NCBI GenBank assembly: GCA_021736785.1
Contig: JAIPFF010000045.1
Coordinates: 1 to 45,347, forward strand
Source: Thiohalocapsa sp.
GTDB taxonomy: Bacteria; Pseudomonadota; Gammaproteobacteria; Chromatiales; Chromatiaceae
Reading direction: 5' to 3'
DNA length: 45,347 nt
The translations under genes were made by a program, and so were the position numbers. Below the pieces are notes generated by a model that ran no database searches, had not been told where the DNA came from, and saw only the letters and a program-made list of their open reading frames with translations. Below are positions 7,415 through 44,405 of this stretch, one piece after another; positions within the stretch are counted from its first letter, which is position 1; every line of letters starts with the position of its first letter.

Positions 7415-8835
7415 GCACCCGCTGCCGAGGCGACGGAGCCGGCGGCGTCGAAATGCTCCGCGACCGCCAGCATGGCGCGCGCCTTGATGCCGATCTCGGC
7501 CCACTCGGCGTCGCAGCGGGAGTCCGCCACCAGCCCGCCGCCGGCCCAAAAGCCGAGGGTTGCCTCCGCGAACGTCAATGTTCGGATGGCGATATTGCAG
7601 TCCATGGCACCGTCGAAGCCGACATAGCCGATGCTGCCGCAATAAACCCCGCGCGGCTCGCCCTCGAGTGCATCGATGATCTGCATCGTGCGTCGCTTCG
7701 GTGCGCCGGTAATCGATCCTCCCGGAAAACAGGCCCGAAGCAGCGATAGCGCATCCTGACCGGGGGCGAGCCGTCCGGTGACCGTACTGACCAAATGGTG
7801 GACACCGGCAAACGACTCGACCTCGAGCAAGCGCGGCACCCGCACACTGCCGGGCACGCAGCAACGCCCGAGATCGTTGCGCAATAGGTCCACGATCATG
7901 ACGTTCTCGGCGCGATCCTTGGGGCTGAGCGCCAGCGCCGCGGCCAGCGCGCGGTCGACGGCCGGATCCGGGTCGCGCCGCGTCGTCCCTTTGATGGGCT
8001 TGGTCTCCACGCGTCCGTCGCGCACGTGCAGAAATCGCTCCGGCGAGGCACTCATGACAACCGTGCCCGGCGTGTGCAGGTAGGCCGAGAACGGGGCGGG
8101 GTTGATCGCCCGAAGCCGCCGGTACACCGGCCAGGCATCGCCCCGCGCCGGCGCCGAGAAGCGCCGCGCGAGATTGACCTGATAGCAGTCACCGGCCCTG
8201 ATCAGGGCTTGCACGCGATCGAAGCGCGCGCGGTAGCCGTCGGCATCCATGTTGCTGCATAGCCGACCCGCGACGGTGAACCCGTCGTGCGCGACCACCG
8301 GCTCCGACGCCCCGGTCTGCCCTCCCAGCACCGCGTCGAGCAGCAGTTGCCGCGCGGGATCGCCGGGCGAGCCGCGCCCGGTCAGCCAGGTTCGGCGCTC
8401 GCGATGGTCGGTCACCAGTGCCCAGTCGTAAATGCCGATGGCCATTTGCGCGGCCCGGGCCGGCAGTACACTGCCGAGATCCAGCCGCACGAACCTTCGC
8501 CCCAAGTCGTAACCGAGCCAGCCGATCGCGCCGCCGACAAAGGGTAGCGGCGAGCCTTGCGGATGCCGCTCGCCCAGCGCCTCGCGCACCAGTTCGAGCG
8601 GGTCGTCGCAAGACAGCCGCGTATCGCCGTCGCGGCGCACCTCGGTGAGGTCGCCGTATGTCTGCAGCGTCGCGCGCGGGCGTGCCGCGAGAATATCGTA
8701 GCGCCCGGCGGCTTCCCCGCCGACGCCGCTGTCGAGGAGCACGGCCCAAGGCTCCGCGGCGAAGCGGCCGAAGACCGCTGCGCTATCGCGCCGATAAGGG
8801 AGGGGCTGCAGCCGCAGCGGCGGCAGCGCGGTCAT
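7387..8835 (-). CDS. pabB: Aminodeoxychorismate synthase component I
   Basis: PabB makes 4-amino-4-deoxychorismate from chorismate for folate synthesis. The product has about 482 residues with the chorismate-binding fold of the TrpE/PabB family. The PIKGT motif (lysine about residue 284) marks PabB, since anthranilate synthases carry PIAGT there. Further signatures are ENVMIVDLLRNDLG and CFPGGSITGAPK. Two ATGs lie six bases apart, at 8841 and 8835. I chose 8835 because GAGG sits eight bases before it and only two before the other. No PabA-like amidotransferase is encoded nearby. Its 3' end overlaps hspQ by 28 bp tail to tail. Confidence 0.94.
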   Translation of the reverse strand: MTALPPLRLQPLPYRRDSAAVFGRFAAEPWAVLLDSGVGGEAAGRYDILAARPRATLQTYGDLTEVRRDGDTRLSCDDPLELVREALGERHPQGSPLPFVGGAIGWLGYDLGRRFVRLDLGSVLPARAAQMAIGIYDWALVTDHRERRTWLTGRGSPGDPARQLLLDAVLGGQTGASEPVVAHDGFTVAGRLCSNMDADGYRARFDRVQALIRAGDCYQVNLARRFSAPARGDAWPVYRRLRAINPAPFSAYLHTPGTVVMSASPERFLHVRDGRVETKPIKGTTRRDPDPAVDRALAAALALSPKDRAENVMIVDLLRNDLGRCCVPGSVRVPRLLEVESFAGVHHLVSTVTGRLAPGQDALSLLRACFPGGSITGAPKRRTMQIIDALEGEPRGVYCGSIGYVGFDGAMDCNIAIRTLTFAEATLGFWAGGGLVADSRCDAEWAEIGIKARAMLAVAEHFDAAGSVASAAGAQLCGVRVR

Positions 8836-41803: not shown

Positions 41804-42278
41804 TCATCGCTCGGCGCCGAAGTAAGCCAACAGCAGCGCGTCGGCCCTGCCTTGGTCCCGCTTGCGTGCCAAGTCCGCGGCCACCTCCGGGAACAGGCCC
41901 AGCGCCAGCGCGCGCCCCGCGTCTTTGTCCTTGCCCAGCAACCGCGCCCGGCGCTTCCATGTCTGCGGCGTCACCAGCACCATCGGCAGGGCCAGCGCAC
42001 CGATAACGCCCTCGGCGACACCGGCAGCGCGCCCGAACGCGAACATCGACGCGACACCTTGCCCCGGACGTGCTCCTACGCGCTCCAGGAAGACCGCAGG
42101 ACGCTCGCCAGCCATCCCCAGGGCATTGGGCCAGCAGATCGGCCAGCAACGGCGCAGAGACGCTCCTAGCGCGCTTCTCGCCCGTCACGGGCATATCCCA
42201 CACCTTGAGCGCCCGGTCGCCCTCGATCAGCGCGACGGCGCCGCTAAGCCCCGGGTCGATCCCGATACGCGTGCTCAT
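41804..42278 (-). pseudogene. RuvC-like Holliday junction resolvase split by a frameshift
   Basis: The first 54 codons from the ATG at 42278 encode the RNase H-like start RIGIDPGLSGAVALIEGD (first catalytic Asp, D8) through APLLADLLAQ. The frame then leaves family similarity at a GGGG run (minus strand; 42116-42119). The adjacent frame, from 42115 to 41804, continues with ERPAVFLERVGARPGQG (catalytic Glu), the core FAFGRAAGVAEGV and the C-terminal KRDQGRADALLLAYFG (catalytic Asp). Removing one G would give about 157 residues, the usual length. It overlaps dnaB by four bases. The cause may be a true mutation, a programmed shift or a sequence error. Confidence 0.8.
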
Positions 42279-43606
42279 GACGCGGCGCGGGCCAGAGACC
42301 CGAAGGTTGCGCGGCCCTCGACGAAGGCCAGCCTCACGACGAAGTTGGCGGGGCCGTTGCGCTGCTTGGCGACGATCAGCTCAGCGACACCGGGAGTCGC
42401 GTCGGTATCGCCCGCAAGGTCCGGCCTGTGCAGCAACATCACGCAGTCGGCGTCTTGCTCGATGGCGCCGGACTCGCGCAAGTCGCTCAAGCGCGGGCGG
42501 GCATCCGATCGGCCGGCGCTCTCGCGGTTGAGCTGGGACAGCGCGATAACCGGAGCGCCGACCTCCTTGGCGAGCAGCTTCAACCCGCGGCTGATCGCGG
42601 ACACCTGCTGATTGCGGTTCTCGCCCTGGTGCTCGATTAGCTGTAAGTAATCGACGACGACCAACCGGAGCCCGCCCATGCGGCGCTTGATGCGCCTGCA
42701 GCGTGCGCGCATCGCCGACACCGTGGCGCCCGCGTCGTCATCGATCGCCAGCGGCGCCGCCTGGATAGCCCGCACCGACGCATCGACGCGCTCGCGGCCC
42801 CAAGCGTCGAGCGTGCCGGTTTGGATGTCCCGCAGCGCAACCCCGCTCGACAGGCTCACAAGCCGGTCGGTCAGCTCGGCCGCCGTCATCTCCATCGAGT
42901 AGAACGCGACAGGCAGGTTGCACTGCAGCGCGACATGCCGCGCGATGCCGAGCGCAAGCGCGGACTTCCCGACGCTCGGTCGGGCGCCGATAACGACAAG
43001 CTGGCCGGGCTCGAATCCGAGCAGGTGCTTATCGAGATCCGCGAGCCCGGTATGCACGCGCTGCACGTCCTCACCGCGGCTTCGGGCCTCCAAGCGGGCC
43101 AGGAAGTCACGCGCAAGGTCCGCGCCTGTCTGCGCCTGCGATGCACCGTCGGATCGCTCCGACAGCGCGAAGACGCGCGCTTCGGCTTCGGCCAGCACCT
43201 CGGCCGCATCGCTCCCGCTGAAGTCGTACGCGGCGTCGGCGATCTCGCTTCCGGTCTTGACCAGACGGCGCAGCATCGAGCACCGGCGCACGGCCCGCGC
43301 GTAGTGCTTGACGTTTTCCGCAGCGCCGGCTGCCCGGTCGAGATCGGCCAGGTACTCGAAGCCGCCTGCCGCATCGAGCTTGCCGGCAGCGGCCAGCGCA
43401 TCGCCGACCACGACGGTATCGAACAGCTCGCCACCGGCGTGCAGCTCGCGGACTGCCGCGAAGATGGCCCGATGGCGCGGCTCGTAGAAGTCGTCCGCGG
43501 AAAGGTCGCCGATGTCGTCCAGCGCCTCGGCGTCCAGCATCAACGCGCCGAGCAGCGCGGCTTCGGACTCGATGCTTTGCGGGGGCTTGCGGGGTTCCAG
43601 GTCCAT
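42275..43606 (-). CDS. dnaB: Replicative DNA helicase, DnaB family
   Basis: The 443-residue hexameric helicase has the DnaB N-terminal domain (about 8-110, starting PPQSIESEAALLGALMLD) and the RecA-like domain. Walker A is GARPSVGKSA (207-216) and Walker B is LRLVVVDYLQL (313-323); SQLNRESAGR is also present. It starts one base after the initiator gene, repeating the O-P/helicase arrangement of lambdoid phages, except that the element carries a whole helicase instead of a loader. It has no intein and all key residues are present. Confidence 0.95.
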   Translation of the reverse strand: MDLEPRKPPQSIESEAALLGALMLDAEALDDIGDLSADDFYEPRHRAIFAAVRELHAGGELFDTVVVGDALAAAGKLDAAGGFEYLADLDRAAGAAENVKHYARAVRRCSMLRRLVKTGSEIADAAYDFSGSDAAEVLAEAEARVFALSERSDGASQAQTGADLARDFLARLEARSRGEDVQRVHTGLADLDKHLLGFEPGQLVVIGARPSVGKSALALGIARHVALQCNLPVAFYSMEMTAAELTDRLVSLSSGVALRDIQTGTLDAWGRERVDASVRAIQAAPLAIDDDAGATVSAMRARCRRIKRRMGGLRLVVVDYLQLIEHQGENRNQQVSAISRGLKLLAKEVGAPVIALSQLNRESAGRSDARPRLSDLRESGAIEQDADCVMLLHRPDLAGDTDATPGVAELIVAKQRNGPANFVVRLAFVEGRATFGSLARAAS

Positions 43607-43607
43607 A

Positions 43608-44405
43608 TCAGTTCACGATCCGCAGCGTCGGGCCGCGGTCCTGCTTGCGCTGCTTGGCAAGGCGGATCAACGCCGCCTCGACGCGGCCGTTCCGGGTGAG
43701 GCAGAGATCCCAATCAACGCGGCGCTTGCTGCGCGCGGCCCAGTACTCGCGGAACTCGACGATCGCCGGTTTCGCGTCGGCGACGGTCAGGCCGAAGGAC
43801 TCGATCCAGCGAACCGCCCTCGGTCCAGGCTGCCAGTCCGGCGGGATCGGCTTTGCAGGGCGGCGCTTGGGCTTGGCGGTCGGTGCGGGTTGGTCGTCTT
43901 CCTGCGAAGCATCCTCGGCGTCGCACGCGCTCGACGAAGGCGACGCGTTCTTCTCTTCTTCTGACGGGTCTACTGACGGGTAGGGTGAACTGGGGTTCAC
44001 CAATGGTTGGAACTGGGGTTCACCTATGGTCCCCCCATTAGTGAACTGCGCTTCACCTATGCCCCCCACCATAGAGGAACCGGGGTTCACCTTTGCTTCA
44101 CTCGCCCGCGGGATAGTTGCACCGACCTCAAGCGCATCGATGTCCCACTGGTACGCGCTCGACGTGCGGCCACCACCCTTGCGGTATCGCCTCTGCGCCC
44201 GGATCAGCCCGCGTTCGACCATATCCTTCACTAACGCCTTCGTATATCGCTCTGAAACGCCGGTCATGGCCGCAACCCGCGCTAGGCTCGGGTAGCAGTT
44301 GCCGCCGTCGGCGTCGGCATGGAAGGCGAGCGCCACCGCCGCCAACTTCAGCGATGGCGGCAGGTCTCGGTTGCGCATCACGAGATCGACCACTCGAATG
44401 CTCAT
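43608..44405 (-). CDS. Phage replication initiator, O-like, with winged-helix N-terminus
   Basis: The 265-residue protein has a helix-turn-helix/winged-helix domain (about 15-75; LKLAAVALAFHADADGGNCY, then SLARVAAMTGVSERYTKALV). A low-complexity hinge (about 100-180) is encoded by the iteron DNA. The C-terminal domain (about 190-262; WIESFGLTVADAKPAIVEFR, WAARSKRRVDWDLCLTRNGR) resembles the DnaT/replication-protein C-terminal fold that contacts helicase or ssDNA. Lambda O has the same plan: N-terminal origin binding, a hinge encoded by the origin, and a C-terminal helicase-side contact. dnaB follows after one base. Confidence 0.82.
   Translation of the reverse strand: MSIRVVDLVMRNRDLPPSLKLAAVALAFHADADGGNCYPSLARVAAMTGVSERYTKALVKDMVERGLIRAQRRYRKGGGRTSSAYQWDIDALEVGATIPRASEAKVNPGSSMVGGIGEAQFTNGGTIGEPQFQPLVNPSSPYPSVDPSEEEKNASPSSSACDAEDASQEDDQPAPTAKPKRRPAKPIPPDWQPGPRAVRWIESFGLTVADAKPAIVEFREYWAARSKRRVDWDLCLTRNGRVEAALIRLAKQRKQDRGPTLRIVN
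43984..44091. repeat. Four iterons inside the initiator gene: putative replication origin
   Basis: The core AACTGGGGTTCACC occurs at 43988-44001 and 44011-44024. Variants AACTGCGCTTCACC and AACCGGGGTTCACC occur at 44044-44057 and 44078-44091. The first lies in a perfect dyad, GGTGAAC-TGGG-GTTCACC (43984-44001); the third and fourth also have dyad symmetry. In the initiator frame the repeats are read in two different phases (VNPSS/VNPGS versus GEPQF/GEAQF), so selection is on the DNA. A pyrimidine-only tract (43944-43958) lies beside them and could be the melting site. Confidence 0.75.

Follow-up and report, generated by a model that had tools for sequence, protein, structure and literature searches.

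Results

The initiator gene and its genomic context

The window, i.e., the whole stretch of 45,347 nt of Thiohalocapsa sp. DNA that was analyzed, comprises two parts. By gene content, roughly the first 36 kb (from position 1) are host chromosome, with genes for, e.g., chorismate synthase, anthranilate synthase, and starch synthase. The phage part begins at about 36.2 kb, includes genes for a tail lysozyme, a DnaB-type helicase, and a replication initiator, and the prophage extends to the window end. A search with ARAGORN found no tRNA genes in the window. A gene with a ProQ/FinO domain (PF04352; 41317-41766, minus strand) is located in the prophage between the helicase gene and the tail lysozyme gene. 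The features at the locus are summarized in Table 1. The original prediction that DnaB is encoded one base downstream was correct, as the helicase reading frame starts one base past the initiator stop codon.

Table 1. Location of the genes and repeated elements at the initiator locus of the prophage.
Feature	Position in the window	Strand	Description
O-like replication initiator gene, 265 aa	43608..44405	-	Pfam, PHROG, AlphaFold2 model
DnaB-type replicative helicase gene	42275..43606	-	PF03796 E 4.3e-85; PF00772 E 6.3e-28; phrog_19 E 2e-104
Iteron copy 1	43984..44001	.	perfect dyad GGTGAAC-N4-GTTCACC, 7-base arms; read as VNPSSP
Iteron copy 2	44007..44024	.	one strong and one weaker half-site; read as GEPQF
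Iteron copy 3	44040..44057	.	GTGAA-N6-TTCAC arms; read as GEAQFT
Iteron copy 4	44074..44091	.	one strong and one weaker half-site; read as VNPGSS
Second element, two tandem 12-mers with (A)CCCGTCAG	43957..43980	-	repeat family D7; directly 3' of the iterons in gene sense

The initiator protein is composed of an N-terminal winged helix (HTH_36), a disordered hinge, and a C-terminal DnaT-like helical domain. Residues 15-68 matched PF13730 (E 1.5e-5, 25.1 bits, cut-off 25), and residues 186-233 matched the DnaT family PF17948 (E 3.2e-5) with 24 bits, one bit under the cut-off of 25. Matches to the PHROG replication initiation families 1032, 8540, and 391 were also obtained. Five Pfam families matched the protein at E ≤0.1, and neither Phage_rep_O (PF04492), the sequence family of lambda O, nor RepA_N (PF06970) was among them. 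In the AlphaFold2 model, residues 1-70 form blocks with pLDDT values of at least 90, residues 101-170 form blocks with values of 44-52, and helices are present at residues 195-256. The hinge that is encoded by the repeat DNA corresponds to the disordered stretch of the model, with a folded N-terminus and a helical C-terminus on its two sides.

A structure search with the model yielded nothing that reached E 0.001. The nearest folds of the winged helix-turn-helix (wHTH), by sequence and by structure, include regulators of the MarR and GntR kinds. When a wHTH profile was compared with the PDB, the best sequence match was 2vn2, a chromosome replication initiation protein (E 0.0011). With the whole protein as query, no close relatives were found in annotated phages at E 1e-5 and none were confirmed in viral contigs, and the N-terminal 102 aa retrieved 7 phage records at E 0.01.

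Four dyads in the hinge-coding region

The 18-base dyads are situated between the winged-helix code and the code for the DnaT-like domain. A repeat search in the window returned them as one family (D1) with copy starts at 43987, 44010, 44043, and 44077 and start-to-start spacings of 23, 33, and 34 bases, and thus the original prediction of four copies at 43984-44091 in the hinge code was exact to the base. The two predicted reading phases were also recovered, one for copies 1 and 4 and the other for copies 2 and 3. On the basis of spacing and phase, readings of the four dyads as a CRISPR or as a coding repeat were dropped.

The array was compared with synonymous-codon shuffles that leave protein sequence and codon usage unchanged. 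The window array scored 14, compared with 4.2 +/- 1.2 in the shuffles, and none of 40 shuffles reached 14. Because the array beats the synonymous-codon shuffles, the repetition is, as had been claimed, a property of the DNA and not of the protein alone. In the 5.2 Mb genome, the pattern GAACYNNNNTTCACC is matched 7 times (copy 1 scores on both strands), 5 times in the array and 2 times at single sites elsewhere, and the same pattern read backwards, used as a control, has 1 match. Repeats scattered in unrelated host genes had been named as evidence against the prediction; they were not seen, the two single sites being the only matches in the genome outside the array.

The same genome also encodes a second O-like initiator (contig C53, locus L162, about 7839-8090), the hinge repeat of which is different and of the GCACCCCAGGGGTGCC type. 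Its array score was reached by 1 of 40 shuffles. Possibly, it belongs to another prophage with a different specificity.

Hinge arrays in other initiator genes

At the family level, profile searches of 194 genomes gave matches in 32; for the genus, 4 of 10 genomes matched, and for the class, 16 of 274. Homologous loci were taken from among the matches listed in these searches (at most 30 per search) and supplemented with 13 genes of named phages. Duplicates of loci in the set (L143, L158-L161) and two weak matches judged unrelated (L163 and the second match in L170) were left out. The set that was tested consisted of 63 initiator-type genes, some of which are close relatives of each other, cut short, or weak profile matches.

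Arrays with three or more copies and a score reached by none of 40 shuffles were present in 33 of the 63 genes, and in 29 of these 33 the copies were in more than one codon phase. The control set comprised 62 open frames of the window and of the same loci, not all of which are real genes, and only two of them carried a qualifying array. One control frame at L147, outside of the initiator, contains three copies of a 16-mer with 22-base spacing (CGCATCACACCCGCAT). For genes of at least 200 aa, 31 of 52 had a qualifying array and the other 21 had no array that beat all 40 shuffles. Homologues without hinge repeats, a second type of evidence named against the prediction, were thus seen in part.

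Lambda O served as a positive control. Its four annotated iterons were recovered, with spacings of 20, 24, and 23 bases and phases 0, 2, 2, and 1. This shows that coding in two phases, as noted for the window, is nothing particular, as the lambda iterons are multi-phase as well. Of the named phage genes, 6 of 13 qualified, namely those of lambda, Pseudomonas phage vB_Pae_CF183a, Mycobacterium phage MooMoo, Salmonella phage S107, Bordetella phage PHB09, and Escherichia phage mEp010. The MooMoo copies start within the wHTH code, and all copies of S107 are in one phase. No array was found in gp03 of Leptospira phage LE1, a distant relative (39 of 40 shuffles reach its score). The repeat word varies among initiators (e.g., GGGAAC..GTTCCC, CAACCGGA..., or CTAGGCC...). 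The homologue comparison suggested with the original prediction came out as expected, i.e., within the initiator-type homologues, a repeated hinge DNA word is kept, while codon phase, order, and number of the copies are variable.

These results bear on the idea of a low-complexity linker at the protein level, the repeats of which would have grown by DNA duplication and be without function as DNA. In its favor, the model shows a disordered hinge, and peptide repeats in frame occur in some homologues, e.g., L041, in which all four copies are in one phase. However, a linker of this kind is very improbable in view of the 29 multi-phase genes with arrays that beat synonymous shuffles, the near absence of arrays from control frames, and the spacings, which cluster at 21-24 and 33-36 bases and are often not multiples of three.

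Census of the GTGAA-type iterons

The single perfect dyad GGTGAAC-N4-GTTCACC was tried as a census word and returned mostly unrelated sequence. That scan yielded at least 120 stretches; among the matches listed, 3 of 120 were in initiator ORFs according to an earlier profile and 6 of 120 according to a later one. It was dropped for a pattern of two tandem GTGAA-N6-TTCAC dyads, which was found in 97 stretches in viral contigs. More than half of these (57/97) fall into one single-linkage similarity cluster of initiator-type ORFs. An iterated wHTH profile detected 52 of the 57 clustered ORFs, and the other five have a helix-turn-helix as judged by eye. The copies in the 57 genes are distributed over the three codon phases with 88, 89, and 17 cases, and phases are mixed in 37 genes. 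In bacterial genome contigs, at least 120 stretches were obtained, and among the matches listed, 5 of 120 were in a profile-matching ORF, one of them weakly.

Two profiles were used for classification. The wHTH profile made before the census (14 rows, one of which, L056, came from the single-dyad scan) matched 40 of the 97 stretches; for a permuted word, the count was 0 of 22. With the later profile, which was trained on the census, the counts were 53 of 97 and 3 of 22. In 44 distinct hinges, 64 of the 111 spacings below 60 bases were 23-24, 16 were 33-36, and 13 were 41-48, compared with 23, 33, and 34 in the window.

The 40 stretches outside the cluster were heterogeneous: 18 were in two ORF clusters read as repressor/Cro regions, 16 were without an ORF of 60 aa, 5 were in other ORFs, and 1 was in an initiator-like fragment (L213). 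The tandem dyads in the 18 repressor/Cro-like loci (e.g., L181, L182, L185, L190, and L197) are of the GTGAAATATCTTTCAC type and mostly 24 bases apart; they look like operator arrays and share their half-site with the initiator iterons. L214 (from 6667) and L260 (from 4748) each have five GTGAA-N6-TTCAC dyads with an exact 25-base spacing and no ORF of 60 aa across them.

Representatives of the cluster were scanned for 35 of the 57 genes, the 22 omitted ones being mostly near copies by eye. The replication initiation family phrog_270 was matched by 30 of the 35, and with Pfam, HTH_36 was detected in 26, Phage_rep_O in 5, and RepA_N in 1. In an alignment of these 35 GTGAA-type initiators, the sole invariant column was an arginine in the recognition helix, which is R53 in the window protein. 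It was present in 39 of 39 distinct GTGAA-type helices versus 17 of 28 others (Fisher p 1.7e-5, uncorrected for relatedness). The arginine as a specificity code by itself was rejected, as it is also present together with other iteron words.

An alternative is that the four sites are bound by a host protein instead of the phage initiator. This is extremely improbable, given that the word differs among initiators of related genomes, that two single matches outside the array are unlike a host regulon, and that the one invariant column of the GTGAA-type initiators is an arginine of the recognition helix itself.

The dyads could also be operators, at which a winged-helix repressor or autoregulator would bind inside its own gene and control the helicase operon, and no origin would be present. 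The 18 of 97 tandem dyad stretches in repressor-type regions and the occurrence of MarR- and GntR-kind regulators among the nearest wHTH folds are in line with this idea. However, the window array is found inside the gene after the wHTH code instead of at its promoter, the proteins match replication initiation families and have a replication initiation protein (2vn2) as the best PDB profile match, and the annotated origins of lambda and P22 are at the same place. Operators are thus a very unlikely explanation, and an origin is the preferred one.

A proposed second repeated element 3' of the iterons

The 60 bases 3' of the window array have an A+T content of 0.40, compared with 0.35 for the gene, and the A+T maximum of the gene is elsewhere. 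The second element of Table 1 is found on this side. Three occurrences of CCCGTCAG are present in the window, counting both strands, and two of them are within 43957..43980. The 12-mers are one base off an AACC(G/A)TCA core, and their tandem score was reached by 9 of 1000 synonymous shuffles. We propose that they are the counterpart of AACC(G/A)TCA repeats in other phage initiators.

The flanks of arrays were analyzed in 78 genes, which remained after removal of near-identical ones from 89. Relative to the gene, A+T was elevated in the 60 bases 3' of the array in 69 of 78 cases (p 6e-13) and in the 60 bases 5' of it in 38 of 78. AACC(G/A)TCA was counted 41 times within about 90 bases on the 3' side of the arrays, never within about 90 bases on the 5' side, and 7 times in the remaining 43 kb; in 200 synonymous shuffles, the mean was 5.2 and the maximum 12, versus the 41 observed. 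The motif accompanies both GTGAA-type and other iterons. At least one copy was found in 19 of the 78 genes, at least two in 15, and copies in more than one phase in 7. Because only 19 of 78 genes carry a copy, the strict motif is a minority form in this set. A word-free test for tandem repeats (9-16 bases, reached by at most 5 of 100 shuffles) was positive 3' of the array in 24 of 78 genes and on the 5' side in 2 of 78.

A scan for three tandem copies yielded at least 120 stretches. Among the matches listed, 118 were in an ORF of 60 aa and 87 in an initiator wHTH ORF; all of these 87 were in sense, and 82 mixed codon phases. Of the other 31 of the 120 listed stretches, several resemble cut initiator genes and others are low-complexity frames. 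The permuted control ACACRTCC gave 19 stretches and no initiators. ACCARTCA was rejected as a control word because it is a related variant, with 18 of 93 stretches in initiators. The ACCA(G/A)TCA triple (L553-L645) has mostly 12-base spacing in initiator ORFs and may be a further version of the second element. The strict AACCRTCA triple was found in two of 397 genomes of the phylum, in one case in an initiator ORF and in the other without an open frame of more than 90 aa, and the reversed pattern was not found in these genomes among the matches listed.

The 73 distinct initiator genes among the matches listed contain 235 copies, versus a mean of 23.4 and a maximum of 35 in 100 shuffles. The spacing is 10-12 bases for 146 of the 162 gaps between their second-element copies. 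In 72 of these 73 listed genes, a 16-mer repeat with at least three copies precedes the second element, a count made without a shuffle control. The iteron words of these 72 genes form 16 single-linkage classes, one of which, probably chained, comprises 54. The largest cluster of C-terminal parts includes 51 of the 73 listed genes, and the neighbors of the listed genes include DnaC-like and DnaB-like genes, as judged by reading of the sequences. The second element appears to be kept at the DNA level in the 73 distinct initiator genes among the matches listed, with copies in all three codon phases, and it is possibly new. No mention of an AACC(G/A)TCA element at phage origins was seen among the open-licence papers listed, in which older phage work may be missing, so that this is weak evidence of absence.

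In P22 gene 18, tandem 14-mers (ACAAAAGACAATAT; L431, 427-454) directly follow the four iterons, with a word unlike that of the window. At the matching site on its 3' side, lambda has a similar ACAAAAG stretch, which as a tandem repeat was not beyond shuffles (655 of 1000 reach its score).

Discussion

A probable origin within the initiator gene

As judged from the sequence comparisons, the locus is very probably a prophage replication origin that is embedded in its own initiator gene, of the type of lambda O and P22 gene 18. We infer that the element replicates by itself. Origins within initiator genes are already known from lambda and P22, and the window has the features of this type that were tested, except for a clear A+T-rich region. 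The claim that the origin of lambda is at the same place in O was borne out by the annotation, and the same is true for P22.

P22 gene 18 is an O-like initiator gene with an annotated internal origin, and gene 12, for a DnaB-like helicase, follows. It has four repeats spaced 20, 24, and 23 bases, which are dyads in our reading, and the tandem 14-mers directly 3' of them. In contrast to the window, its iteron word is of the TTTACC..GGTAAA type, the 3' side is A+T-rich, and genes 18 and 12 overlap by 4 bases, whereas the window has a 1-base gap. As in the window, lambda O carries its four dyad iterons mid-gene, spread over several codon phases. It differs in its A+T-rich 3' side (0.68 over 60 bases) and in the gene that follows O, which is not a helicase gene but gene P, and lambda P loads the host DnaB. 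The lambda iterons are likewise flanked by the code for a DNA-binding N-terminus and that for a C-terminus used in interactions, and they are described as 18-19 base inverted repeats that are bound by O dimers and followed by an A+T-rich region that opens (PMC7466680, PMC6022878).

The model of the window protein has weak fold matches to 4pt7, 4pql, and 5kbj, which are not significant (E 0.009-0.028, TM-score by target 0.42-0.44); the latter two are presumably linked to RepA_N. 4pt7 is described as a staphylococcal RepA, and according to the same source, RepA_N initiators (pTZ2162, pSK41) and the RepA of the satellite PLE have a winged-helix N-terminus that resembles DnaD and binds semi-palindromic iterons (PMC7145576). 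The window protein differs from them in having no RepA_N match at E ≤0.1, and their replicons are plasmids or satellites.

A possible mechanism

A sequence of events at this origin can be envisaged. Dimers of the N-terminal winged helix would bind to the four dyads, the spacing of which, about two and three helical turns, would place them roughly on one face of the DNA. The bound array might put strain on the DNA 3' of it, and opening would occur at the tandem 12-mers located there. The C-terminal DnaT-like domain could then recruit the DnaB of the phage itself to the opened strand. Many sequences would be tolerated in the disordered hinge, and the DNA at this place would therefore be free to carry the origin.

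We hypothesize that many such phage origins consist of two separately evolving parts, i.e., type-specific dyad iterons and a common element of 10-12-base tandem repeats on the 3' side with the core GAACC(G/A)TCA, which would be kept at the DNA level in all three frames and combined with varied iteron words, C-terminal domains, and helicase-loading neighbors. The common part might be a sequence-specific site of unwinding or helicase entry that is recognized in single-stranded form by an iteron-independent factor and replaces the A+T-rich region of lambda in G+C-rich phages. The window would represent a two-copy variant. The chances that this two-part hypothesis is right or wrong seem to us evenly balanced.

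Implications

The likely origin of an unstudied prophage has been placed to about 150 bases. The results also offer a rule for finding origins of this type, namely to search O-like genes, immediately after the part that encodes the winged helix, for a repeated dyad that is out of codon phase. Which signal other than A+T content defines the place of origin opening and helicase entry is an old loose end, and if the second element is real, the question of what marks this place in phage origins would become directly testable with a defined sequence.
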